Shown here: one piece after another, positions 3,401 through 64,000 of the stretch
How positions within the stretch are numbered: the stretch's first letter is position 1
How the letters are laid out: every line of letters starts with the position of its first letter
From: Anaerolineae bacterium
GTDB taxonomy: Bacteria; Chloroflexota; Anaerolineae; Aggregatilineales; Phototrophicaceae
DNA length: 64,000 bases
NCBI GenBank assembly: GCA_022841825.1
Contig: JALHQT010000002.1
Location: forward strand, 1 to 64,000
Direction of reading: 5' to 3'
Translations under genes and position numbers: made by a program
Notes under the pieces: model-generated
What the model was told of the DNA's origin: nothing
The model's database searches: none
The model's input: the letters and a program-made list of their open reading frames with translations, nothing else

Positions 3401-3570
3401 TCACGGGCGATGACACCTATCTCGACATTGCCCGCGACGCCTACGCCGCCGGGCGCGCCAACTGCGCCGCGCCGGGCATCCTGAATGAGCAGCGGCTGCT
3501 GCTCGGCATCCTGGCGGGCGGCGCGGCAGAGGCGGAACGGGAGCGGGTGATGGCGACGTTTGGGGGGTAG
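409..3570 (+). CDS. TIR-STAND (NB-ARC)-TPR protein
   Basis: Modular signalling protein of 1053 residues. It has an N-terminal TIR domain (FISYAHDD at 4-12). The conserved TIR NADase glutamate is probably E75 in CRNEW. A helical linker follows, then a STAND NTPase with Walker A GRGGMGKT at 263-270 and Walker B CVLLLDNLED, and LLITTRE as the sensor segment. The C-terminal third is TPR repeats, roughly 650-1000. In known TIR-STAND proteins the TPRs sense a ligand, the NTPase oligomerises and the TIR consumes NAD+, often causing abortive anti-phage defence. That function is inferred here. The ATG at 409 was chosen because the TIR fold begins immediately after it; a TTG 39 bases upstream is less likely. 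It is a single-gene unit, and the next gene is convergent. Confidence 0.9.
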   Translation: MPHFFISYAHDDAKHFAQVLHDDLESSGFDIWLDRHDIQPPANWDEAIEKALRGCAAVIALITPKSLASQVCRNEWQVASNASKPILPILITPENGGAPSAFADLPLLFARAQAVNFVRDGEAAGFAQVRKGLRNIQTLQAEIAETARKLHEYQQGTTDAPRPDALASAIGDLQSDLAIKRRALLEPGTVAAEQAQSLQTLMALQRQAQKQASERATRGERRVVGMMPQALPDSFKDRERERAEITNYLIADGGERRIISVIGRGGMGKTALACTVLQALEGDHARIHGIAYLSGAERARTLTLQAIYDALGAMLGGEDTQAIRDIWTNVNLTPEARAERLLERVGTRRCVLLLDNLEDMLDVEGRIHDDDLRPFIDLLLRRPHGVRLLITTREPLKPADDAVRYQFAVPLDEGLPEPYAVELLRDLDRDGELGLREGSAATLAEIARRTHGIPRALEAVVGLLVSDPFLTPEALLKDARLWGDRVTRNLVERAQSRLNADARRVMQALALYGKPVPEAAVRHLLEPLAGAGGIDVAKTLRLLARGRYLTINRASGTITMHPLDREHNYAQLDENKDECRAWEARAADYYAALKGTPADWGEYADLEPALEEFDHRVKAGDYAAAFGIIDTIGFDYLRRWGHSARELELRHQLVSRLGDERSEAINQFQMGQLYIDLADYRAALAEYEAALPVADKDVFDPGGGGRVLGAIGDTYWYLQDYPRALDYLERALARAREVKDETNEASALHTIGNVYVHQGRMTEALYHYQQSLAIKERINAEWNVPPTLSAIARLYIDLGDLAAAREYAERSMYLSLKLKDRPGVGSEHNRLGTIDEYEGRYADALAHYTQALRIAEDVGDRRWKVYALCNLAALHPQIGSSAEAEQRLAEARALAEEIASPGELSYAYRRTARHHLITGAFADARDWLLRAAPHERPDSLFRQQRDLAIAHLRLGDSDAGRDAFNACLDDCAKLLADTANLWHPKYARGLALCGLWLLTGDDTYLDIARDAYAAGRANCAAPGILNEQRLLLGILAGGAAEAERERVMATFGG

Positions 3571-3657
3571 GTGAGGAGAGGTGATGAGGCAAAAGGTGAT
3601 GAGGGTAGGGGCGATGGTGCGTCGTCCGGAGTGCGCATCAAAATCACAGTCGCGTAG

Positions 3658-3815
3658 TCGCTTCGCTGGAAGCTCAAAGCTTCCAGCTTGAAGGGTGGAA
3701 AAGCCTCTCAAAGAGGCTCTTAAGACCTTCCTCATGTCGAAAGCACGGGTTAGTGAGCCGCTTCAGCGGCTTTCGACTGGGCTTCTAGCCTGAAGCTTTG
3801 AGCTTCAGGCGACGA
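3658..3815. repeat. Multi-hairpin intergenic repeat (AAGCTTTGAGCTT type)
   Basis: A run of short palindromes: GGAAGCTCAAAGCTTCC, AGCCTCTCAAAGAGGCT, AGCCGCTTCAGCGGCT and TGAAGCTTTGAGCTTCA. They lie between the convergent TIR-STAND and histidine kinase genes. The same palindrome modules reappear at about 9049-9202, beyond the TIR-NACHT-HEAT gene. No coding potential is seen. It may act as a bidirectional terminator, or may simply be a mobile palindromic element. Confidence 0.6.
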
Positions 3816-3854
3816 AACAAGTTTGGAGCATTCGCCCGCGCCCATCCCCCGCCA

Positions 3855-6173
3855 TCACATCTTCCCGCGATTGACGACCGTCGTATCCACGAAGTCCTTT
3901 TCGTAGCCATTGCCGGTCTTGGCGAAGCTCATCACCCGCCGCCCGTCTTTCGAGGATTCGAGCGGCAGTTCGATGTAGAAGGTCGAGCCGGGGCAGGCTT
4001 CCATATCATGACCCGGGCTTTCCACCCAGATGCGCCCGCCATGCCCCTCGACGATGCCGCGCGCAATCGTCAGCCCCAGCCCCGGTCCTGCGCCCATGAA
4101 CTTGTAGGTCCCGCTCGAATGCAGGCTGGGGTCGGTCGTGCGGTAGAACTTGTTGAAGATCAGCTCCAGGTTGTCTTTGTCGATGCCGACTCCGGTATCG
4201 GCAATCGCCAGCACGATGCGCTCCGGCGCACCACTCTCGGCGGCTTTCACGTCCGCCGTGACATCGATGCGCCCGCCATCCGGCGTGAACTTGATGGCAT
4301 TGACCAGCACATTGCGGAATGCCTGGACCAACCGCGTCATGTCCGCCTCGATCATCGGCAGCCCGCGCAGCCCGCGCACCACCAACGACAGCTTGCGCTG
4401 CCGCGCCACATCCGCCAGCGGCTCGACCGCCATGCGCAGGATGCTTTCCAGCGATGCTTCGGCGAAGCGCAGATCCATCGACTTGAGATCGAGCTGGCTC
4501 ACGTCGAGCATGGCGGCGATCAGTTCTTCGATGCGGTCGCCCGCCTTACCCATGTTCTCCAGATGCTCGCTCAGGCGATCCTGATCCAGGATGCCCTGGC
4601 TGTTGAGTGCGCTGGCGAGGTCGATGTAGCCCTTGATCTGTGCCAGGGGCGTTCGCAGCTCGTGGCTGGCGATGGTGATGAAATCGGTCTTGACGGCGTC
4701 CAGCTTCTCCATCTGATCTTTGGCGGCGGCGAGACCCCGGTTGAGCACCTGGGCGTTGTCGTTCAACTGCCGCAGATCGGCGACCAGGCGCGCGTTGCGC
4801 AACGCGACTCCGGTCTGATCCGCCATCGTCGCCAGCAGATCGAGATCTGCCTGCGTATAAAGCGAGTCATCGCGCTTGCTGCCGCAGACCAGCACGCCGA
4901 TCAGCGCGTCATCGACCACAATCGGCGCATAGGCGCTCATCGCCGTTTCGCGGAAGAATTGGCGTTCCGCCTCGCTGGCGGCGCTGAAGTCCGGCTTGAA
5001 CTCGATGTCGTACTGCGTCAGCGGCGCGCGCAGTTGCTGCCAGTGCTTGAAGATCGGGCTGCTGTTCGCCATGCGAAGCCGCCCCTCTTTGCCGCTGGCG
5101 CTGCCCGTCAGAAAGCGCAGGACGACCTGCCCGGTCTCCGAGTCGGGGGCGTTGACCAGGATCAAGCCCGCGCGCCGCGCATCCATCACCTCCGTCAGCG
5201 TATCGACCACCGTCTGCGCGAGCTGGCGCAGGTCGAGCGAGCGCGTGATCTGCTGGCTGTATCGGCGGGCAGCAGCGGTGGGGTCGGCGGCGGCGGGCGA
5301 ATAATGCTGGAAGAGCAGATTCAGCGCGCCGCGCAGGGGGACGTAGAGCGCCGCGATCACCAGCGCGACCGCGCCGACAAAGCCGACGAACAACGGTTGG
5401 TAGCGGAAACCGACCAGCATCAGCACCAGTAGGATGGCGAGCGCGATAACCCCCGCGGTCAGCACAATCGTCGCCAGCACGCGGAGCACCAGCCGCAGCC
5501 GCTCGGCGAGGTCGAACGCCTGCCGTTCGATATGCATATAGGCGGCACCGGCGACGCCCAACAACAGCGCCAGGATACCCGCCTGCATGAGGAGCGCCAC
5601 GCCGCTGAGGAGGAGCGCTGCTGCGGATAAGACGGCGATGCATTGGAACAGCCAGAGCAGTGCGCGATTGCCGACTTCCGGCAGGAGCGCGCGGTCATGG
5701 GCGATCAGCGTGATGCCCGGCAGCAGCGCGCTGATGACGACCAGCCCCGCCAGCACGACCACGCCCGACGCCTCCGGCGCGCGCAGCAGCGTGACCAGCC
5801 AGTCGCGCTCGCCGACGGTGAAGCCGGGGGAGAGCAGCGCCATCAGGGCGATCAGCCCGATCCAGACCGCGCCGCCCGCCCACCACCAGCGCGCCTGCTG
5901 CCCGTTGAGGTCGCGCAGCAGCAGCGCGCCGAATGCCACGAGCATGAACGCCAGCGCCAGCACCATGATAAAGCCGCGACCGAGGCGGTCGTTGAGGGCG
6001 AATTGTTCGGGGAGCAGCAGGCTGGCGGCGACGAGGACTGTCGCCAGCAGCGTGACGAGCAGCGTCTGCTTGCCCGCGATGGGGGGGCGCTTGAAGACGA
6101 CAACCCCGCAGAGCAGCGCGCAAATCAGCGCGACTGCCAGCGGAAGCAGGTTCTCTATCGAAAAGTTGCCCAT
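3855..6173 (-). CDS. Membrane histidine kinase with GAF sensor
   Basis: Sensor histidine kinase of 772 residues. The first ~290 residues are strongly hydrophobic, with about seven or eight membrane segments in two groups. A GAF-like domain follows (about 304-460). Then comes HisKA with SHELRTPL (phospho-acceptor about H504), and HATPase_c with NAIKF (N box), ADTGVGI (G1) and GPGLGLTIA (G2). It would autophosphorylate and signal to a response regulator, but none is adjacent; a REC protein lies far away at 55.4 kb. A TTG lies one codon upstream of the chosen ATG. The gene sits between the two TIR-STAND genes, and whether it is linked to them is unknown. Confidence 0.92.
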   Translation of the reverse strand: MGNFSIENLLPLAVALICALLCGVVVFKRPPIAGKQTLLVTLLATVLVAASLLLPEQFALNDRLGRGFIMVLALAFMLVAFGALLLRDLNGQQARWWWAGGAVWIGLIALMALLSPGFTVGERDWLVTLLRAPEASGVVVLAGLVVISALLPGITLIAHDRALLPEVGNRALLWLFQCIAVLSAAALLLSGVALLMQAGILALLLGVAGAAYMHIERQAFDLAERLRLVLRVLATIVLTAGVIALAILLVLMLVGFRYQPLFVGFVGAVALVIAALYVPLRGALNLLFQHYSPAAADPTAAARRYSQQITRSLDLRQLAQTVVDTLTEVMDARRAGLILVNAPDSETGQVVLRFLTGSASGKEGRLRMANSSPIFKHWQQLRAPLTQYDIEFKPDFSAASEAERQFFRETAMSAYAPIVVDDALIGVLVCGSKRDDSLYTQADLDLLATMADQTGVALRNARLVADLRQLNDNAQVLNRGLAAAKDQMEKLDAVKTDFITIASHELRTPLAQIKGYIDLASALNSQGILDQDRLSEHLENMGKAGDRIEELIAAMLDVSQLDLKSMDLRFAEASLESILRMAVEPLADVARQRKLSLVVRGLRGLPMIEADMTRLVQAFRNVLVNAIKFTPDGGRIDVTADVKAAESGAPERIVLAIADTGVGIDKDNLELIFNKFYRTTDPSLHSSGTYKFMGAGPGLGLTIARGIVEGHGGRIWVESPGHDMEACPGSTFYIELPLESSKDGRRVMSFAKTGNGYEKDFVDTTVVNRGKM

Positions 6174-6722: not shown

Positions 6723-8942
6723 CTACTCCTCGCGCGGCTTAATCTTCCCCGCACGATAATCCGCAAGTGCGGCTTGGGCGGCGGGGTGATTTGGGAAACG
6801 GCTCAGTGCGTTAGCGGTGCTGTGGCGGACAGACTTATCCGGATCTTGCAATGCCTCTGCCAGTCGTGGTACAGCCGGCGCACCCAACTGCTCCAGCGCT
6901 TCTGCGGCGCGGAGGCGGACATTCCAATCTTGATCGTGCAGGGCAGTGATCAGCGGCTCGACGGCGCACACGTTGCCTAATGCGCCCAGCGCCCAGGCGG
7001 CGAGGCGGCGCAGATACCTGTCTGGGTCGTGTAGGGCGACGATCAGCGGTTCGACGGCGGGATCGCCCAACTGCGCCAGCGCTCTTGCGGCGCTGCTGCG
7101 GACATACTCGTTCGGGTCGCGCAAGGCGGCGATTAGTGGTTCGACGGCGCGCGCGTCGCCTAACTTCCCCAGCGAGTCGACGGCGCCGCCACGGACAGAG
7201 ATTTGTGGGTCGCCTAACGCGGCAATCAGCGGTTTGACGGCGCGCGCATCGCCCAACTGCCCCAGCGCCAAGGCGGCGCTGCTACGGACATTTTCGTTCG
7301 TGTCGCGTAGGCTGCGAACGGCTGCCAGATATGCCAGGGCATCGTGCAGGCGCAGGTGCAAGAAACGGTAACTTGCGATGCGTAACTTACTCCAACGACT
7401 GACTGGGTCATTCCCGGCAAACTTGAGCATATCAAGACGCTCCGCAAGCCCAATCACATGCTTCGCATCCAAACCGTCGACAACTTCTGCCACAATATGC
7501 GTGTAGCCGCCCCCCCATACTCGCATCGACCACATGGCCGCCATTCCCAACCGCCGCTTCAACTCCTGCGCTGTGTAGGGAAGCGGCACGTCGGGCTGGC
7601 GTGCCTGCTCATGCATCCAGCGCTTGTCGATGAAGGCGTTCCAGATGCGGTCGTTCAGGTCGCCCGCGCTCTTCCCCCTTAGTGCACGCACATCTTCCGG
7701 CGCATCCTCGTAGGCGACGCGCACCAGCGCCAGCAGCAGCGGCGTGCGCAGCGCCTCTTTCAGCTCGGCGTCGGCACTCACCACCGCCCACAACCCCGCC
7801 ACATCCGCCAGATACGCCGCCATCTGCCCGTCGTCCAGCCGTTCCAGCCGCACGGCGCAGCTCAACGCCGCCTGCGCGCCAATCTGGCGGTATTCCTCGA
7901 CGCGGCTGCTCAGGATGACTTTGGAGGTCGTCGGCAGCACTTTCAGGAAGCGCTCGCGTGGGTCGTACTCGCCTTTGCTGGGATCATTCGGATCGACCGG
8001 ACGCGAGCCTCCGAGTTCGTCCAGTCCGTCGAGCAGCAGTAGCGCCTGACCGCCCTCGATCAAGCCGCGCAGCGCCGCCGCATCGAGCTTATGCATCCCC
8101 GCCAGCCAGTCGTGCAGCGGCGTCGCATCGTGCGCGTTCCAGCCGGAGATGCGCGCGAAAAGGGGCAGCGGCTGCGCCGGGTCGCTCAGGCGGGCGGCGG
8201 CGGCATCGCGGGCGAACGCCAGCAGCGTCGTCGTCTTGCCCGCGCCCGGCTCGCCCAGCAGCAGCACGCGGCCCTGGCAGTGGGCGTGGTCGTAAGCGGC
8301 GCGCAGCGACGGGAACGGTTCTGAGGGTGGGGCGGGTGCGGGAGCCTCGCGCAGCGTGTAGGGGACATACTTGGGGTTGAGCTGGCGCGTTTTGCCTCCC
8401 ACGTCGCCCGATGTCGCCACCGTCCGCAGCGTCAGCATGTCGTTCGAAAAGACCGAGGCGCGGATCGACTCGACCAGGTCGGCATACATCGCTTCGAGAT
8501 ATGCTTTGTAGGCATCGGGCGGCGGGGTGGGCGCGTCCCCGCTGCGGCTGCTGGCGACCGCCGCGCCATCCAGCCAATGGCACAGCGTCTCGAACGCCGC
8601 GTCCCAGCCTTTGAAGAAGTCGATCCAGGTGTTTGTGAAGATGTGGATGGGTGGCGGCACATTCGCGAAGCGCGCGACCAGGATCGGCTTTTTCAGGTAG
8701 TTCGCATATGCGATCTCGCGGCGCACGAAGCTGTCGTCGCGCAGCACATCCGGCGTCACGCACACGACCACATGCGCCGCCGCCTGAATCGCCTTCTCGA
8801 TCTCGGCGGTGAAGTCCTGCGCCGGGTCGATGCCGCGCACATCCCGCCACACGGCATAGCGCGGCTTCAGGGCAGCGTCGAGCGACGCTGCCCCCAGGTC
8901 GGCGTCCTTGCGTGCGTAGCTGATGAAAACCGTCGCGCTCAT
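6723..8942 (-). CDS. TIR-NACHT-HEAT repeat protein
   Basis: STAND protein of 739 residues. The N-terminal TIR-like domain begins FISYARKDADLG; its probable catalytic glutamate is E76 in SFVRREIAYA. A NACHT NTPase follows, with Walker A GEPGAGKT near 230-237, Walker B LLLLDGLDE near 300-312 and a sensor segment KVILSSRVEEY. The C-terminal part (about 545-730) carries five to six PBS-lyase-type HEAT repeats of about 31 residues, visible in the DNA as a ~93-base period with motifs such as AVEPLIAAL. By analogy with bacterial NLR-like proteins it may sense phage or stress and deplete NAD+. It uses HEAT repeats where the neighbouring TIR-STAND uses TPRs, so the two are not simple duplicates. Confidence 0.9.
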   Translation of the reverse strand: MSATVFISYARKDADLGAASLDAALKPRYAVWRDVRGIDPAQDFTAEIEKAIQAAAHVVVCVTPDVLRDDSFVRREIAYANYLKKPILVARFANVPPPIHIFTNTWIDFFKGWDAAFETLCHWLDGAAVASSRSGDAPTPPPDAYKAYLEAMYADLVESIRASVFSNDMLTLRTVATSGDVGGKTRQLNPKYVPYTLREAPAPAPPSEPFPSLRAAYDHAHCQGRVLLLGEPGAGKTTTLLAFARDAAAARLSDPAQPLPLFARISGWNAHDATPLHDWLAGMHKLDAAALRGLIEGGQALLLLDGLDELGGSRPVDPNDPSKGEYDPRERFLKVLPTTSKVILSSRVEEYRQIGAQAALSCAVRLERLDDGQMAAYLADVAGLWAVVSADAELKEALRTPLLLALVRVAYEDAPEDVRALRGKSAGDLNDRIWNAFIDKRWMHEQARQPDVPLPYTAQELKRRLGMAAMWSMRVWGGGYTHIVAEVVDGLDAKHVIGLAERLDMLKFAGNDPVSRWSKLRIASYRFLHLRLHDALAYLAAVRSLRDTNENVRSSAALALGQLGDARAVKPLIAALGDPQISVRGGAVDSLGKLGDARAVEPLIAALRDPNEYVRSSAARALAQLGDPAVEPLIVALHDPDRYLRRLAAWALGALGNVCAVEPLITALHDQDWNVRLRAAEALEQLGAPAVPRLAEALQDPDKSVRHSTANALSRFPNHPAAQAALADYRAGKIKPREE

Positions 8943-9048
8943 GCTGTGTGGTTCGCTAATAGCTCGACCGCGATTATGGCATGGCGCGCGTGGCGGCGCA
9001 ATGAGCGTTGCGCGTGGTCAGCGTCATGGCATCAAACGCATTTCGCCG

Positions 9049-9202
9049 CCTGAAGCTCAAAGCTTCAGGCTGCAAGACCAGCCGAAAGCCGCTGAAGCGG
9101 CTCTCCACTGCGGTCATTCGATATTGGAATCGTAGTACAGGAGCCGCTTCAGCGGCTTTTTCTGCCGTTCTAGCTGGAAGCTTTGAGCTTCTAGCGACCC
9201 GA
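9049..9202. repeat. Second AAGCTTTGAGCTT-type hairpin block
   Basis: Contains CTGAAGCTCAAAGCTTCAG, AGCCGCTGAAGCGGCT, AGCCGCTTCAGCGGCT and GGAAGCTTTGAGCTTC, the same palindrome modules as 3658-3815. It occupies most of the gap between the TIR-NACHT-HEAT promoter side and the end of the oxidoreductase gene. No coding potential is seen. Confidence 0.6.
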
Positions 9203-9266
9203 GAGCCTACCTATGATTTTGAGAGGACAGCCTTGGCGATAAGGTGAGGGCGGATTCGGCTGAGGG

Positions 9267-10238
9267 CTAACCTGCCACCCCGATCACCACCTTCCCCCGC
9301 GCGTGCCCGGTCCCGAGATAACGCAGCGCGTCCGCCGTCTCGCTCAGGGGATAGCAGCGTTCGACCACGGGTTTGACCACCCCCGCCTCGATCAGCTCGC
9401 CCAGGAACGCCAGGTCATCTGCGTTGGGCTGTGCAAACAGGGCACCGAGCGTCTTACCGCCGCGCGACATGAGCGGTCCCCGCAGCGTCGCCTCGAAGAT
9501 CTGCGCGTCACTGCCGCCGACCATCACGTAGCGACCGCTGGGGCGCAGTGCGCGGGCGTAATCGGCAATCGGGCGGTAGCCGTTGATAGCGGCGATCACA
9601 TCGTACTGCGCGCCATTTGCCGCGAAGTCGTCCCGCGTGTAATCGACGACCGCGTCCGCGCCCAGGTCGCGCGCCATCTCGAGCTTGCCCGTGCTGGTGA
9701 CGGCGGTCACATGCGCGCCGAGCGCTTTACCGATCTGGATGGCGAACGCGCCGACGCCGCCCGATGCGCCGTAGATCACCACCTTCTCACCCGCTCGCAG
9801 CTTGCCCTTGTCGCGCAGCCCTTGCAGCGCCGTTACCCCCGCCATCGGCACGGCTGCTGCTTCCTCGAACGACAGGCGCGCGGGCTTATGCGCGAGCAGT
9901 TTGGCGGGCGCGGCGACATATTCCGCGAAGCTGCCAGCACCGCTGCCGGAAAGATCGCCATAAACCGCGTCGCCGACCTTGAGGCGGGTGACGTTGCGAC
10001 CGACCGCCTCGACCACCCCGGCGACATCCACACCCAGGATGGGGTTCTTGGGCTTGAACAGCCCGAAGAAGAGGCGGGCGATGAAGGGTTCGCCGCGCAG
10101 AGCCCGGTCATCGGCGGAATTGACGGCGGCGGCATGGACTTTGACCAGCACCTGGTCGTCCTTCGGCGTCGGCTTTGCCACGTCCGTGAGGCGAAGGTTG
10201 TCGGGTGATCCGTATTGCGTGTAGATGATTGCTTTCAT
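9267..10238 (-). CDS. Zinc-independent MDR-family NAD(P)-dependent alcohol dehydrogenase / quinone oxidoreductase
   Basis: Medium-chain dehydrogenase/reductase of 323 residues. The N-terminal GroES-like domain shows PILGVDVAGVVEAVG and VGDAVYGDLSG. The Rossmann domain follows, with the nucleotide-binding motif YGASGGVGAFAIQIGKALG. The catalytic-zinc cysteine ligands of alcohol dehydrogenases are not evident, as in quinone oxidoreductases. The sequence begins MKAIIYTQYGSPDNL, typical of the family, so the ATG is secure. It probably reduces quinones or enals with NADPH; the substrate cannot be told. It is monocistronic. Confidence 0.88.
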   Translation of the reverse strand: MKAIIYTQYGSPDNLRLTDVAKPTPKDDQVLVKVHAAAVNSADDRALRGEPFIARLFFGLFKPKNPILGVDVAGVVEAVGRNVTRLKVGDAVYGDLSGSGAGSFAEYVAAPAKLLAHKPARLSFEEAAAVPMAGVTALQGLRDKGKLRAGEKVVIYGASGGVGAFAIQIGKALGAHVTAVTSTGKLEMARDLGADAVVDYTRDDFAANGAQYDVIAAINGYRPIADYARALRPSGRYVMVGGSDAQIFEATLRGPLMSRGGKTLGALFAQPNADDLAFLGELIEAGVVKPVVERCYPLSETADALRYLGTGHARGKVVIGVAG

Positions 10239-10267
10239 GTTGTGTTTCCTACTTTGATAGACGAGGC

Positions 10268-10310
10268 AGTGAACCGCGAAGGCGCGGAGGACGCGAAGAT
10301 CACAGGAACA
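10268..10310. repeat. Short interspersed repeat (AACCGCGAAGGCGCGGAGG type)
   Basis: The stretch GAACCGCGAAGGCGCGGAGG followed by ACGCGAAG resembles sequences at about 41026-41100 and, inverted, at about 38028-38092. It lies directly upstream of the oxidoreductase start. It is a small interspersed repeat with no coding content. Confidence 0.5.
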
Positions 10311-10333
10311 TCCTTGGCGTCTTCGAGGTTTTC

Positions 10334-10699
10334 TTATGCAGTCCAGTTCCAGGCGTACCAGAGGGTCACGCCGTTGAAGACCATGCTGACGACGAGCAGG
10401 AACTTGTCATATAACGACGGATAGCTGCTCAAGTCGATCAGGACGAAGACAAAGAGTACGACGGCGACGATGATGCTTGCCCATCGAGCGATCGACTGCG
10501 GCAGCACCAGCGACAGAAACGCCATCAGGATAGGAATGAGCAGGAAGATGGCAGCGAACAACCATTTCTCGCCGGAGGATGGGCTTGCTGCTTCCATGCG
10601 GGCAAAGTCGCCACTGTAGATGCGCAGCACATCGCCAACCAGATAGATGAGAATGACGGTGATCCATGAGCCGGACAGGATAAGTCGTGTATCGAGCAT
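10334..10699 (-). CDS. Small four-helix membrane protein, unknown function
   Basis: 121 residues with about four hydrophobic segments (near 5-22, 45-63, 70-88 and 100-118) and short loops. The start MLDTRLILSGSW places the first helix right after the N terminus. It resembles uncharacterised small integral membrane proteins; no catalytic motif was seen. The downstream gene is the oxidoreductase on the same strand, about 95 bases beyond its stop, so co-transcription is possible but unproven. Confidence 0.7.
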   Translation of the reverse strand: MLDTRLILSGSWITVILIYLVGDVLRIYSGDFARMEAASPSSGEKWLFAAIFLLIPILMAFLSLVLPQSIARWASIIVAVVLFVFVLIDLSSYPSLYDKFLLVVSMVFNGVTLWYAWNWTA

Positions 10700-16942: not shown

Positions 16943-17372
16943 AGAATTGGCGTTGGCTTTGGTTTCGGCGGGCAGCAACCCACGCATGGCGGGGTTAGAC
17001 CTGACCTCGCTGGATATGACGCGCCTGGACCTGACGGGCGCGAACCTGCGCGGCGCACGGATGCAAGGCTCCACCCTGCGCGAGGCAATCCTGCGCCTGG
17101 CAAACATCACCTACGTCGATCTGACGGTCGCCAAGGCGATTGGCTGCGATTTCGACAGCGCCAACCTGACCGGCACGAACCTGACCGGCGTTGACCTGAC
17201 CAGCGCACGCCTGACGAATGCCAACCTGACTGGCGCGACCCTGAACGACGCCAACCTGACGAACGCCAACCTGAAGGGCGCGAACGTCACCAATGTGCGC
17301 TTCAACGAAAAGACGACCTGGCCCGATGGCAAGAAGGGCAGCCAGGGCGACCCGACGAGTTACACGCGATAA
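16923..17372 (+). CDS. Pentapeptide-repeat protein
   Basis: 149 residues made largely of A(D/N)LxG-type pentapeptides from about residue 20 to 125 (LTGANLRGARMQGSTL, then NLTGTNLTGVDLTSARLTNA). They would fold into a right-handed quadrilateral beta-helix. A short helical N terminus (MPEITRKELALALVSAG) and a hydrophilic tail flank the repeats. Functions of such proteins vary, including gyrase protection or scaffolding, and none is evident here. The start lies within the end of the epimerase gene, so the genes are probably coupled. Confidence 0.88.
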   Translation: MPEITRKELALALVSAGSNPRMAGLDLTSLDMTRLDLTGANLRGARMQGSTLREAILRLANITYVDLTVAKAIGCDFDSANLTGTNLTGVDLTSARLTNANLTGATLNDANLTNANLKGANVTNVRFNEKTTWPDGKKGSQGDPTSYTR

Positions 17373-35733: not shown

Positions 35734-37269
35734 ATGTCTAAAGATCTCGTGATTGGCGTGGACAGCAGCACGACCGCCTGCAAAGCGATTGCCTGGGATC
35801 GGGCGGGCAAAGCGGTCGCGGAGGCGCGCGCCAGCTTCGACCTCATTTCCCCGCAGCCCAATTGGTACGAACAGAATGCCGACGACTGGTGGACGGCGCT
35901 GTGCAGCACGCTGCGCGATCTGGTCGCGCAGGTCGGCGGCGAGCGCATCGCCGCGCTGTGCATCACGCATCAGCGCGAGTCGTTCGTCCCTGTGGACGAG
36001 GCGTGCCGACCGCTGCGCAACGCAATCCTGTGGGTGGACGACCGCTGCGTGCCGCAGGTCGCCGAAATCGACCGCCGCTTTGGCTCCGACGCGATCCAGG
36101 AGCTGACGGGCAAGGGACCTTCGACCAAGCAGTCGCTGCCGGAATTCCTCTGGCTGCAAACCCATGAACCGGATGTCCTCAAGCGCGCCTACAAGATCCT
36201 CGACGTTCACGCATTCCTCGTCAAGCGCTTGACCGGGCGCTGGGTGACCAGCACCGCCTGCGCCGACCCGATGGGCGTGCTGGACATGCGCGGCAACACC
36301 TGGGCGACCGACCTGATCGCGCAGATCGGCTTGTCGGTCGAGCAGTTCGCCGAGCTGATGCCGCCGGGCGCGATCATGGGCGAGGTGACGGCGGAAGCGG
36401 CGGCGCTGACTGGGCTGCCTGCGGGCGTGCCGGTCGTGGCGGGCGCGGGAGATGGTCAGTCGGCGGGGTTGGGCGCGAACATCACACAGCCCGGCAAGGC
36501 GTATCTCAACCTGGGGACGGCGATGGTCTCCGGCGCGCACCTGGAGCACTATGCCGCCGACCGCGCCTTTCGCACGCTCTGCTCGCCGCTGGCGGGCGCG
36601 TATGTCGCCGAAGAAGTGTTGGGCGGCGGCACGTTCACGGTCACCTGGTTCGTCGATAACTTCGGTCCCGATATGCGCGGTGTGGGACTGCCCGTCTCGC
36701 GCGAGGAGGTGCTGGAACTGGCGGCGAGCAAGCTGCCGCCGGGGTCGCTGGGCTTGATGCTGGTGCCTTACTGGAACGGCGTCATGCCGCCCTACTGGGA
36801 TGCCGCCGCGACCGGGATCACCGTGGGCTGGACGGGCGCGCACCGCCGCGAGCATTTCTATCGCGCTATCATGGAAGGCATCGCCTACGAACACCGCCTG
36901 ACGATGGACGGCGTGGCGCGCGCGACGGGCACGCCGCTGGACGAATTCATCCTGATGGGCGGCGGCTCCAAGAGCGCCTTGTGGTGCCAGATCGTCGCGG
37001 ACATCCACAACACGATGGTGACCCGCGCCAGCACGACCGAGGCGACCAACCTGGGCGCGGGCATTCTGGCGGCGTTCGCGGCGGGCTGGTATGCCAGCGT
37101 GCGCGAGGCGGCGGAGGCCATGACGCAGCATGGGAAAAGCTTCCTGCCGAACGACAAGACGCATGTCATTTACGACCGTCTGTACCGCGAGGTCTATGTG
37201 GAGTTGTTCCCGGCGCTGCAAAAGTCGCTGGATAAGTTGAATGCGTTGACGTATGGGGGAGCGAGTTAG
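35734..37269 (+). CDS. FGGY-family sugar kinase (xylulokinase-like)
   Basis: 511 residues. The N-terminal ATPase motif is VIGVDSSTTACKAIAWD, with the catalytic-site segment WVDDRCVPQ and CADPMGVLDMRGN. The C-terminal FGGY signature region includes ILMGGGSKSALWCQIVADI. It phosphorylates a pentulose, hexulose or polyol taken up by the upstream importer. The stop codon lies inside the first unit of an 8-bp-periodic array. Its exact substrate (xylulose, ribulose or another) cannot be assigned. Confidence 0.9.
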   Translation: MSKDLVIGVDSSTTACKAIAWDRAGKAVAEARASFDLISPQPNWYEQNADDWWTALCSTLRDLVAQVGGERIAALCITHQRESFVPVDEACRPLRNAILWVDDRCVPQVAEIDRRFGSDAIQELTGKGPSTKQSLPEFLWLQTHEPDVLKRAYKILDVHAFLVKRLTGRWVTSTACADPMGVLDMRGNTWATDLIAQIGLSVEQFAELMPPGAIMGEVTAEAAALTGLPAGVPVVAGAGDGQSAGLGANITQPGKAYLNLGTAMVSGAHLEHYAADRAFRTLCSPLAGAYVAEEVLGGGTFTVTWFVDNFGPDMRGVGLPVSREEVLELAASKLPPGSLGLMLVPYWNGVMPPYWDAAATGITVGWTGAHRREHFYRAIMEGIAYEHRLTMDGVARATGTPLDEFILMGGGSKSALWCQIVADIHNTMVTRASTTEATNLGAGILAAFAAGWYASVREAAEAMTQHGKSFLPNDKTHVIYDRLYREVYVELFPALQKSLDKLNALTYGGAS

Positions 37270-37447
37270 CTCGATAGCTTTATAGCTGGATAGCAAATTA
37301 GCAAGGAAGCGAATTAGCTCGATAGCCTGATAGCTGGATAGCAAATTAGCGAGGAAGCGGAGAAGCAAGGAAGCTGATTGGCTTCAAAAGCTAGCGAGCT
37401 ATCCAGCTAGCGAGCTATCCAGCTAATCTGCTAATTCGCTAATTCGC
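37266..37447. repeat. 8-bp-periodic array with central inversion
   Basis: On the plus strand, AGC recurs every 8 bases for 14 successive units (AGCTCGAT, AGCTTTAT, AGCTGGAT, AGCAAATT, AGCAAGGA, AGCGAATT and so on). After a short junction near 37380, AGC/GC keeps the 8-base spacing while the units now read as the same octamers on the minus strand (AGCTGGAT, AGCGAATT). The array overlaps the kinase stop codon and ends before the ribosome site of the rpiB gene. It can fold into a long imperfect hairpin. No protein or CRISPR structure fits. Confidence 0.8.
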
Positions 37448-37468
37448 TCACGAATAAGGAGTGACACC

Positions 37469-37927
37469 ATGAAAGTTGCGATTGGCTGTGACGAAGCGGG
37501 GCTGCCGCTGTTGGACATCATCCGCGAGCAGTTGAAAGAGAAGCATATCGAGGTGCAGGACTTCGGCGTGCACAACGCCGACCCGGTCGATTACCCGGAC
37601 ATTGGGGAGGCGGTGGCGGAGGCGGTCGCCAGCGGCGCGGCGGAGCGCGGCATCCTGGTCTGCGGCACGGGCATCGGCATGTCGATCACGGCGAACAAGG
37701 TGCCGGGGGTGCGTGCGGCGCTCTGCCACGACACCTATTCCGCCGAGCGCGCCCGCAAGAGCAACGACGCCCAGGTGATTACGATGGGCGCGCGCGTGAT
37801 CGGGTCGGAACTGGCGAAGTCGATCATCGAGACGTGGCTCAACGCGGAATTCGCGGGTGGGCGTTCGGCGCCAAAGGTCGAGAAGATGAACGCGGTGGAC
37901 GAGAAATACCGTCATCAAGGCAGTTAA
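37469..37927 (+). CDS. rpiB: RpiB/LacA/LacB-family sugar-phosphate isomerase
   Basis: 152 residues. The N-terminal IGCDEAGLPLLDII fold, the catalytic-loop LVCGTGIGMSITANKVPGVR, and CHDTYSAERARKSNDAQVI are all as in ribose-5-phosphate isomerase B. It interconverts aldose and ketose phosphates. The active-site Cys is in the CGTGIG loop. The ribosome site AAGGAG lies eight bases before the ATG, after the octamer array. The operon position suggests work with the FGGY kinase on the same sugar. Confidence 0.9.
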   Translation: MKVAIGCDEAGLPLLDIIREQLKEKHIEVQDFGVHNADPVDYPDIGEAVAEAVASGAAERGILVCGTGIGMSITANKVPGVRAALCHDTYSAERARKSNDAQVITMGARVIGSELAKSIIETWLNAEFAGGRSAPKVEKMNAVDEKYRHQGS

Positions 37928-38027
37928 ATCGTGGATACCCAAGACACGGACGGAGGAATTGAAACACGGAGGCACGACGGGACGAAGGTTCACGAAGGAC
38001 TGGATCGTCGATGGGTGCTCCGTGTTC

Positions 38028-38092
38028 CACCGTTTACTCTGTGCCTTCGTGTTGAAAACTTCTGCGCGTCCTTCGCGCCTTCGCGCTTCCAT
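38028..38092. repeat. Interspersed repeat (CGCGTCCTTCGCGCCTTCGCG type)
   Basis: GCGTCCTTCGCGCCTTCGCG and neighbours match the inverted repeat pieces at 10268-10310 and 41026-41100. The gap 37928-38103 contains this repeat and a GGAGGCACGACGGGACGAAG piece of the same family; nothing else was recognised. Confidence 0.5.
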
Positions 38093-38103
38093 GCGAGTGC
38101 ATC

Positions 38104-39066
38104 ATGAACACGCATTTCCGCAGCCGCGATGATTTGCTGACGCGCGTCGCCGCGCTGTACTACGAGCACGACTACAGCCAGCAGCAGATCGCCGATAAGC
38201 TCAATATCTCGCGTTCGAACATCTCGCGGATGTTGAAAGAGGCGAAAGAAAAAGGGCTGGTCGTCATCCGCATCCTGCATCGCATCCCACACTCGACGGT
38301 GCTGGAACAGGCGCTGACCGAACGCTTCGGACTCAAACGTGCGTTGGTGGTCGATCTTCCCGGCAAGCTGTACGAGGAGCAGCTTGCGGGTGCGGGGCAG
38401 CTTGCGGCGTGGCATCTCGAAGAAATCCTCCAACCACAAAGTGTGATCGCCATCTCGTGGGGCAATGGGGTCGCCTCAGCGGTCAGCGCCATCGGTCCGC
38501 TTTCGCATCTGCGCGTCGATGTCGTCCAGATGATCGGCAGCCTGGGCAACATCGCCTCGGTGATCGACGGTCCAGAGCTGGCGCGGCGGCTCTCACTCAA
38601 GCTGGGTGGCAGCTACCACTATCTGCACGCGCCGCTTTTCCTCACCAACAGCGTCACCCGCGATGGACTCATGGAGCAGTCCACGATTGTCGAAACGCTT
38701 CAGCTTGCCCGCGAGGCGCAGGTCGCGCTGGTGGGCGTCGGCACGACCGCGCCGGGCGCGTCGAGCTTCCTGCGCGCGGGGCATCTAACCGAGGCGCAGG
38801 TGGGCGAACTGCGGGCGCAGGGCATCGTCGCGGAGACGGCGGGCTGGCACCTCGACGTGCAGGGCAATGCGGATTACGACATCAACCGCCGCGTGCTGGC
38901 GCTGCCGCTGCCGGATCTCAAGCGCATCCCGGATATCGTGGCGGTGGCTTGCGGCGCGGCGAAGACCGCCTCGATCCTCGGCGTGCTGCGCGGCGGCTAT
39001 GCCAACGTGCTGGCGACCGACGCGGCGACCGCCCAGGGCGTGCTGGAGGCAGCGGAGGGAACGTAG
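38104..39066 (+). CDS. SorC/DeoR-type sugar-binding transcriptional regulator
   Basis: 320 residues. The N-terminal HTH is YYEHDYSQQQIADKLNISRS followed by NISRMLKEAKEKGLV. The C-terminal SorC sugar-binding domain includes VIAISWGNGVASAV, GVGTTAPGAS and DINRRVLALPLPDLKRI, with ACGAAKTASILGVLRGG near the end. It is probably controlled by a phosphorylated sugar produced by the FGGY kinase or RpiB. It lies downstream of those genes in the same direction and is the likely regulator of the importer operon. Confidence 0.9.
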   Translation: MNTHFRSRDDLLTRVAALYYEHDYSQQQIADKLNISRSNISRMLKEAKEKGLVVIRILHRIPHSTVLEQALTERFGLKRALVVDLPGKLYEEQLAGAGQLAAWHLEEILQPQSVIAISWGNGVASAVSAIGPLSHLRVDVVQMIGSLGNIASVIDGPELARRLSLKLGGSYHYLHAPLFLTNSVTRDGLMEQSTIVETLQLAREAQVALVGVGTTAPGASSFLRAGHLTEAQVGELRAQGIVAETAGWHLDVQGNADYDINRRVLALPLPDLKRIPDIVAVACGAAKTASILGVLRGGYANVLATDAATAQGVLEAAEGT

Positions 39067-62916: not shown

Positions 62917-63378
62917 ATGCAATCGAAAGCCAATCGCTCGCCCGACTCCATCAGCCTGCCGCATCTCATCCTCGATGCGCTGCCGATGACGATGCGCGTG
63001 GTCGCCGCGCAAATGCGCGATACCCCGCACAGTCTCCAGTACCAGCATCTGCCCGTGCTGGCGGCGCTCACCCGGCAGCCGCTCACACAGAGCGCGCTGG
63101 CGGAGATGATGTCGGTCAGCGGGGCGACGATGAGCAACACGCTCACGGCGCTGGAGGAGCGCGGCTGGATCGTGCGCGAACGTTCGCACGAAGACCGCCG
63201 GGTTGTCCACATTTCGCTGACGGCGGACGGCGCGACTGCGTTCCGCGACACGATGGCGGAGATGGAAGCCTACATTGATGGACTGCTGGTGCACCTGGAC
63301 GAGCAGGCGCGGGCGGAACTGCGGGCGGGGCTGCTGCATCTGCGCGACGTGTTCTATCGGGCGTTGGGCGATGAATAG
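62917..63378 (+). CDS. MarR-family transcriptional regulator
   Basis: 153 residues. The winged helix is visible as YQHLPVLAALTRQPLTQSAL, the recognition helix MMSVSGATMSNTLTALEERG, and the wing RSHEDRRVVHISLTADGATA. Helical ends (SPDSISLPHLILDALPM and the C-terminal ~40 residues) dimerise. It precedes an ABC ATPase gene by about 120 bases and probably controls it, as in many drug-efflux loci. Confidence 0.9.
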   Translation: MQSKANRSPDSISLPHLILDALPMTMRVVAAQMRDTPHSLQYQHLPVLAALTRQPLTQSALAEMMSVSGATMSNTLTALEERGWIVRERSHEDRRVVHISLTADGATAFRDTMAEMEAYIDGLLVHLDEQARAELRAGLLHLRDVFYRALGDE

Positions 63379-63382
63379 ACCT

Positions 63383-63449
63383 GTGCGAAGTGCGTAGTGC
63401 GAAAAGACAAATCCGTGCTTGTTCGCACCACGCACCTCGCACTTCGCAC
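63383..63449. repeat. Long imperfect hairpin between marR and the ABC gene
   Basis: GTGCGAAGTGCGTAGTGCGA and TTCGCACCACGCACCTCGCA plus CTTCGCAC pair over most of their length. It lies 5 bases after the marR stop and about 50 before the ABC gene. It may be a terminator-like or regulatory hairpin, but no T-tract follows. Confidence 0.6.
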
Positions 63450-63497
63450 TCACTTTGAAACACTATCGGAATTGAAAGCATTGGAGGCGTAGCGGTT

Positions 63498-64000
63498 ATG
63501 TCGAATCGTGAAATCATCGCGGAAAATCTGGTCAAACGGTACGGGGATTTCGCCGCTGTGGACGATGTCTCGTTCAAGGTCGGGTCGGGCGAGATCTTTG
63601 GCTTCCTGGGTCCCAACGGGGCGGGCAAGAGCACGACCGTGTCGATGCTGACGACGCGCGTTGTACCCACCCAGGGTAAAGCGCTGGTCGGCGGTTTCGA
63701 TGTCGAACGGCAGTCTACGGATGTCCGTCGTCTGGCAGGCGTGGCGCTTCAGGAGATCGGGCTGGACCCGCTCATGAAGTCGATGGAACTCCTGACCATT
63801 CAGTGCCAGCTTTTCGGCTTAGCGCGCAAGGCGGCGGTCATGCGGGCGCAGTATCTGTTGGAAGTCGTCAAGCTGGACGACCCGACAACCGTCCAGCGCC
63901 CGGTTGGCAAGTACAGCGGTGGGATGCGCCGCCGCCTCGACCTGGCGATGGCACTGGCGCACGAACCCGCCATCCTGTTCCTGGACGAGCCGACGACCGG
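63498..64000 (+). CDS. ABC transporter ATP-binding protein, drug-exporter type (partial)
   Basis: The first ~167 residues of a DrrA-like ATPase that runs off the window. Visible: GFLGPNGAGKSTTVSMLTTR (Walker A), the signature KYSGGMRRRLDLAMALAHEP, and LFLDEPTTG (Walker B). Members of this family work with a membrane permease, usually encoded next, to export antibiotics or lipids. The start follows a GGAGGCG site. The upstream MarR gene is the likely regulator. Confidence 0.92.
   Translation, partial: MSNREIIAENLVKRYGDFAAVDDVSFKVGSGEIFGFLGPNGAGKSTTVSMLTTRVVPTQGKALVGGFDVERQSTDVRRLAGVALQEIGLDPLMKSMELLTIQCQLFGLARKAAVMRAQYLLEVVKLDDPTTVQRPVGKYSGGMRRRLDLAMALAHEPAILFLDEPTT

Follow-up and report, generated by a model that had tools for sequence, protein, structure and literature searches.

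Arrays of degenerate heptamers are on record for several groups of bacteria, with no agreed function. The STRR heptamers of cyanobacteria are short tandem words dispersed between genes, while REP/REPIN elements, which go with RAYT transposases, are intergenic, occur in many copies and consist of two inverted arms around a variable loop. For two Xanthomonas genomes, Rehm et al. 2015 describe degenerate heptamers, (GGGANTN)n, which form 70 and 75 convergent pairs, always with one array per strand, and these pairs lie on average 28 nt from the upstream ORF (PMC4692102). According to the same text, the heptamers are mostly intergenic, between same-direction genes, and under-represented in divergent gaps; most of the repeats are transcribed as judged by published RNA-seq, and their role 'still remains to be elucidated', with no function found there (PMC4692102). 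For the Nostoc heptamers GGGGA(C/T)T, that text reports only a few pairs (PMC4692102). The TAACTGA heptamers of Beggiatoaceae, cyanobacteria and Bacteroidetes are presented as invariant direct repeats that mostly stand just upstream of start codons, with one indirect repeat among the 169 sets of the genome studied, and a translational or post-transcriptional role is suggested for them (MacGregor 2015, PMC4679880).

The locus described here lies in a stretch of DNA of 64,000 nucleotides (64 kb; the window), between two plus-strand genes. The upstream gene (35734..37269, from the ORF list) encodes an FGGY-family carbohydrate kinase (PF00370 and PF02782), and the downstream gene (37469..37927) encodes an RpiB/LacAB-type sugar-phosphate isomerase (PF02502, 195.8 bits). 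The stop-side arm of the array, recognised by its sequence pattern and by comparison with shuffles, consists of 15 in-phase octamers, AGCNNNNN, on the plus strand (37260..37379); all of its AGC triplets share a single phase, and it contains 2.1 copies of a six-octamer (48-bp) block (plus strand, 37260..37359; Tandem Repeats Finder, 92% match). A strandless junction of 10 bp, the apex region (37380..37389), separates it from the inverted arm, which runs along the minus strand from 37448 back to 37390 and comprises seven full octamers and the AGC anchor of an eighth. The rpiB start is 20 bases past the array end, and AAGGAG (37456..37461, plus strand), just outside the array, is the likely ribosome-binding site of this RpiB-type gene.

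A first-pass annotation of this DNA had described an octamer array with a central strand inversion, a last group of the same octamer type on the minus strand and a phase unbroken except at the junction, and all of this holds: there is no slip within either arm. The array that it placed at 37266-37447 exists, with a start six bases earlier, at 37260; its run of about 14 plus-strand octamers is there and numbers 15; and the array does adjoin the kinase stop codon, from which it was said to run, but the stop TAG (37267-37269) sits within it. The pattern (AGCN5)x5 has 16 matches in the window, all of them in the kinase-rpiB array, and none in 100 dinucleotide-preserving shuffles; the array is thus real and far beyond chance. 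For the sense RNA of 37255-37470, the predicted fold has -91.3 kcal/mol (z -6.8), and none of 200 shuffles was equally stable. A search of 36800-37900 against Rfam 15 gave four matches, none reaching its gathering score (best MIR844, 31.5 of 70 bits). No promoter-like site was found at 37000-37700, and the single terminator-type match in that range is on the minus strand, against 0.5 in shuffles. As for intrinsic termination, no five-T run occurs on the sense strand within 14 nt past any of the 22 arrays analysed in the source genome.

The first-pass annotation had also set this array apart from CRISPR, iterons and coding repeats, and each of these distinctions stands. Its 8-bp units are contiguous and have no spacers, unlike CRISPR repeats of about 20-50 bp with unique spacers; its neighbours are a sugar kinase and an isomerase, and its family is dispersed across the genome; and a coding repeat is excluded by the position of the array, outside the called genes on either side, and by a unit length that three does not divide. 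Coding through a 550-aa minus-strand ORF that enters the array was considered separately and rejected, this ORF overlying the kinase gene and being without support.

We read the array as an intercistronic RNA stem-loop, a reading to which we give about even chances and in which its role is likely but unproven. The kinase-rpiB array is one member of a genome-wide intercistronic family built from two inverted arms of tandem 8-bp words, and it occupies the spacer from the stop codon of one operon gene to the leader of the next. It would very probably be co-transcribed with the operon and, as the computed fold suggests, form a long imperfect stem-loop in the mRNA, which may separate the two cistrons, for example as a 3' exonuclease barrier or a processing signal; the array words may also supply stop codons. 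These words come from one genome-wide set and would be swapped or formed anew more quickly than the sites themselves are gained and lost, which would account for the other words, even of another length, at the same site in sister species. The main rival, a serious possibility though short of an even one, is that these are tolerated simple repeats, namely degenerate 7- or 8-bp arrays that grow by slippage, spread by short-homology copying and are functionless. Such repeats would survive where they do least harm, in promoterless spacers beside stop codons that a TAG, TAA or TGA of the array can replace.

The search for tandem octamers that the first-pass annotation had proposed yielded at least 25 clear clusters in the source genome (5.9 Mb, 21 contigs), using the pattern and BLAST with two elements; a weak match at C3:221451 (E 0.3) stands outside this count. 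The five-unit AGC pattern has at least 75 forward and at least 45 reverse matches there, while its reversed control has 0 forward and 0 reverse among the matches listed. We analysed 22 of the 25 clusters; of the remaining three, C5:167636 and C5:168100 are arms some 440 bp from each other (L258), and C8:137281 is a single short arm (L259). In L258 (1639-2132, G000:C5:167636-168131), the two octamer arms are complementary, as if a loop had been invaded. In 21 of the 22 analysed clusters, an AGC arm comes first and is followed by an inverted arm, each of at least three words, so that long imperfect hairpins are possible; in the exception, L068, the second arm has only two in-phase words. Octamer phase and inversion recur in this way at 20 other loci of the same genome, so that the lack of conserved phase or inversion, which the first-pass annotation had named as the case against its reading, does not hold. 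The near-universal inverted pair is likewise at odds with tolerated repeats.

Each word has a fixed AGC and five variable bases, and one small word set (RRATT, YNGAT, RRRGA and T-rich words), common to the whole genome, serves both arms. A fixed AGC beside free words is unexpected under neutral decay and speaks against tolerated repeats; block duplications within arms (the 48-bp block at kinase-rpiB, and also L055) agree with them. The stop-side arm has 4 to 30 words and the second arm 4 to 15 in the 18 elements with a working outer-edge word reader. The same 18 elements were used for the pairing tests, since this reader fails on L062, L065, L066 and L068; for L062, L066 and L068, we placed the outer edges manually.

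We then compared the elements with the genes around them, called with our own codon-usage script trained on the source genome. Twenty of the 22 elements lie between codirectional genes; the 126 background pairs of these stretches comprise 84 codirectional, 22 convergent and 20 divergent ones (Fisher p 0.023). L058 occupies a divergent gap, where one start codon follows at 15 nt and the second gene is 440 nt away, and L068 is the sole element in a convergent gap. This last count weighs against tolerated repeats: convergent gaps are promoterless too, yet they hold one of the 22 elements, although they make up 22 of the 126 pairs and 4,948 of 22,288 intergenic bases. For 18 of the 20 codirectional elements, no more than 12 nt separate the upstream stop codon from the array edge, and in 15 the stop is at or inside that edge. 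Once the array is subtracted, the spacer measures 24 nt (median) and does not exceed 60 nt in 19 of the 20, versus 36 of 84 background codirectional gaps that are equally small (p 1.2e-5), where the background is gaps of -20 to 60 nt and the array spacer is the gap minus the array, which are not the same quantity. Given such small residual spacers and stop codons at the array edge, the arrays appear to occupy operon-like spacers and are very probably transcribed together with the flanking genes. The neighbours include ribosomal proteins L11, L1 and L20, lysine-pathway enzymes, a response regulator and a sugar kinase; no functional theme shared by the identified neighbour genes was seen.

The two arms of an element are neither copies of one another nor specifically matched. 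In best register, the fraction of variable positions that match is 0.536 for own arms and 0.569 for swapped arms (18 elements), and 272 of 300 between-element swaps reached the own pairing score. In G006, a relative with heptamer arrays, own arms have -6.00 kcal/mol per word versus -6.16 for swapped arms, and 81% of 2000 permutations were at least as stable as the own arm pairs. Arms of different elements are therefore interchangeable, and their pairing derives from the shared word set. Because own arms pair no better than swapped ones, selection for a particular stem is not visible, and the idea that the arms arose by a recent inverted duplication is rejected; the mismatch of arms within one element fits tolerated repeats. 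One possible reason for the lack of arm-specific compensation is the loss of perfect long palindromes. The sense RNA is more stable than the antisense in only 13 of the 22 source-genome elements and 12 of 19 in G006, which shows no strand preference, and G-U pairs are in only mild excess over A-C mismatches (54 to 38); both results count against the stem-loop. A symmetrical word order (outer RRATT, inner YNGAT), which appeared as a trend in mean positions, was discarded, as shuffled order equals the own score in 78 of 300 cases.

Four sites, each picked because the source genome has an element there, were compared across relatives, those at rplT and homocitrate synthase being read by eye. G002 and G013, two species of the genus, keep kinase and rpiB side by side (74-80% nucleotide identity), separated by 26 nt that hold no array. 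Upstream of homocitrate synthase, the element is present in the source genome only: by eye, no octamer array was found in the 11 relatives with a full-length match, in seven of which the same upstream gene reaches the start codon, the other four having another neighbour. After rplT, word arrays occur in four of 13 genomes, as octamers in the source genome, two-armed AGCNNTT-type heptamers in G006 and looser, one-armed heptamers in G002 and G013. After rplK, five of the 15 genus genomes have a two-armed array between the stop codon and the conserved leader, built of the octamer AGCN5 in the source genome, the heptamer AAAGTNN in G004 and G006 and the heptamer TGRGYNN in G010 and G012 (four word types, counted as three dialects); their best periods are 8, 7, 7, 7 and 7, with fold z between -2.7 and -5.9. 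The other ten genomes have no array in this gap: nine have spacers of 15-65 nt, and G011, whose 106-nt spacer gives a weak period-7 signal (0.50), was counted as arrayless. In the rplK-rplA gap (L260-L274), a leader GTGGGAGGGC ... CCACAGGAGA before rplA is common to the genus and is perhaps a ribosomal-protein regulatory site.

The rplK arrays fill exactly the unconserved spacer, from the stop codon to the conserved leader, as tolerated repeats might, while the refilling of the same sites with other words weighs against such repeats. At these places, site and architecture outlast sequence, with sister species carrying other words at the same place. With five of the 15 species filled and ten without a clear array, the rplK-rplA gap constitutes a natural experiment on whether operon expression is altered by such elements.

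The other word types were then followed beyond the source genome. AAAGTNN has at least 82 and at least 94 matches on the two strands in G006 and at least 68 on each in G004, and is absent from 11 of the 15 genus genomes among the matches listed. In G008, it has at least 26 and at least 18, where the reversed control is also high (at least 18 and at least 12) and provides no chance estimate. TGRGYNN has at least 64 and at least 88 matches in G012; its reversed control is frequent too because the pattern reads alike backwards, and, being equally frequent in several genomes, it gives no chance estimate there. For G006, we examined 27 heptamer clusters in 20 stretches, from the places listed first (C90 and later left out). 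The 21 that are two-armed all have the AAAGT arm first; 16 of them are codirectional, two convergent, two divergent and one uncertain, and the codirectional clusters stand at a median of 12 nt past the stop and 28 nt before the next start. The G006 heptamers thus replicate the two-armed architecture with other words. In the source genome itself, AAAGTNN has 0 and 10 matches among those listed, all 10 exact matches being on the reverse strand, and AAAGTNN heptamer arrays, some of them two-armed with an imperfect first arm, are seen at L277, L281, L289 and L293.

A three-plus-three hairpin pattern, searched in 101 relatives, occurs in at least five genomes (source genome, at least 23 matches; G035, at least 17; G029, at least 5; G022, at least 2; G013, at least 1), and its control has 0 throughout among the matches listed. 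G035 uses a TCAGC dialect, and five of its seven elements with two called neighbours are codirectional; in G029, the stop-codon rule is looser, since all four elements are at least 55 nt from called genes. In the phylum, the six-unit AGC pattern matches at least 19 of 400 genomes (source included), with several matches being plain repeats, and its reversed control matches other genomes, up to at least 430 times in one, so octamer arrays with other anchors are common. The plain octamer repeats in many genomes of the phylum agree with tolerated repeats. Three genomes of phylum family f32 (G392, G455, G475) have hundreds of octamer-array matches, also in the reversed control, and are very rich in short tandem arrays built on other anchors. 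A scan of named genomes returned at least 119 stretches, and the 119 listed include only four AGC-first and four GCT-first pairs by our own criterion, including those of a Chitinophagaceae bin (L178) and a Thermoflexia bin (L146). This scarcity of pairs is again in line with tolerated repeats, as is the fact that some of these stretches are plain self-complementary repeats.

Further repeats were seen in the window. Two-armed AGTGCGN heptamers and their inverse lie between codirectional genes at 63378-63498 (best period 7, fold z -3.2). Weaker stretches of inverted words (ACACGGAG-like, CGCGAAGG-like) may be present in codirectional gaps directly after rpiB (37927-38104, fold z -1.6) and at 10238-10334 (fold z -2.1). 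There are also tandem repeats of 93 bp at 7035-7307 and of 15 bp at 17158-17285, the latter resembling pentapeptide-repeat coding.

Taken together, the strongest argument for an RNA-level function is the placement of the arrays and the reuse of their sites. The strongest counter-argument is that elements show no within-element pairing advantage and that most species have no element at a given site (10 of 15 after rplK); the looser placement in G035 and G029 also counts against a stem-loop. The rules that the family offers are a start at the stop codons of operon genes, inverted pairs, a genome-wide stock of words and, in sister species, the possible use of different words at one site. More speculatively, and with considerable doubt, the arrays may be a sequence-free but site-conserved RNA element, in which inverted arrays are kept at certain intercistronic sites while their words (7- or 8-mers with different anchors) are replaced wholesale per genome, so that any arm would pair with, or be read like, any other arm of that genome, through a species-specific reader or in trans between mRNAs.

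MetJ acts on 8-bp boxes and omega-type repressors on 7-bp heptads, and each octamer could similarly serve as half of a site at which a DNA- or RNA-binding protein recognises AGC at 8-nt intervals. The fixed anchor, free words, strict period, presence of both orientations and interchangeable arms would suit such a protein, but the sites come after stop codons within operons rather than at promoters, no promoter-like site was detected around the kinase-rpiB array (37000-37700), and both words and word length vary between sister species, which makes protein binding improbable. Less probable still is a miniature transposon of the REPIN or MITE kind, mobilised by a Y1 tyrosine transposase: the arrays are dispersed, inverted and inserted into a conserved operon, and one of the five Y1_Tnp matches in the source genome is 1.3 kb from an octamer array, but this array is the only one in the five Y1_Tnp stretches and has a gene in between, four of the five matches have other palindromes nearby, the one Y1_Tnp protein classified is an IS200/IS605 transposase (REP-transposase score 23.1, cut-off 80 bits), Y1_Tnp matches occur in all 15 genus genomes whether or not these carry arrays, and inspection by eye showed neither common ends nor a fixed length nor a target duplication. 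A separate palindromic repeat with a AAGCTCAAAGCTT core was noted in gaps, near Y1_Tnp genes and in the loop of an octamer element (window 8942-9267 and 3570-3855, the L071 loop, L362 and L364); such palindromes are possibly ends or relics of IS200/IS605-type elements.

Returning to the intercistronic stem-loop, we compared its layout with the known repeat systems. Nothing on octamer arrays of this type was found in the open-licence literature, although a CytR study reportedly speaks of 'octameric repeats'. The cyanobacterial STRR are likewise dispersed intergenic tandem words, but they are heptamers. REP/REPIN elements share the inverted arms, intergenic location and many copies, whereas the arms here are tandem 8-bp words of varying number; as for a RAYT link, none of the five Y1_Tnp matches in the source genome is directly flanked by octamer arrays. 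Like the TAACTGA repeats, the present arrays consist of short tandem words in intergenic gaps, some of them beside ribosomal protein genes, with some sites empty in relatives, but they differ in being inverted pairs.

The first-pass annotation knew no feature type with such a layout; the Xanthomonas convergent pairs supply a heptameric precedent (PMC4692102). Like GGGANTN as described there, the arrays are short, degenerate tandem words with a fixed core, present in many copies, mostly intergenic between codirectional genes, inverted in pairs (21/22) and near the upstream ORF (its stop codon no more than 12 nt away in 18/20 codirectional cases). Unlike those heptamers in that account, they have an inverted partner in 21/22, often a stop codon inside and other words at the same site in sister species. 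They are also built of 8-bp words with an AGC core and no G-tract of the kind able to form a G-quadruplex, and we therefore regard them as a variant of the Xanthomonas-type repeats and not as the GGGANTN family itself. Overall, the arrays are best read as an octameric, intercistronic variant of the degenerate short tandem repeats known as heptamers, to which they add the octamer unit, the near-universal inverted partner, stop codons that coincide with the array edge or lie within it, interchangeable arms and the replacement of words at the same site between sister species.
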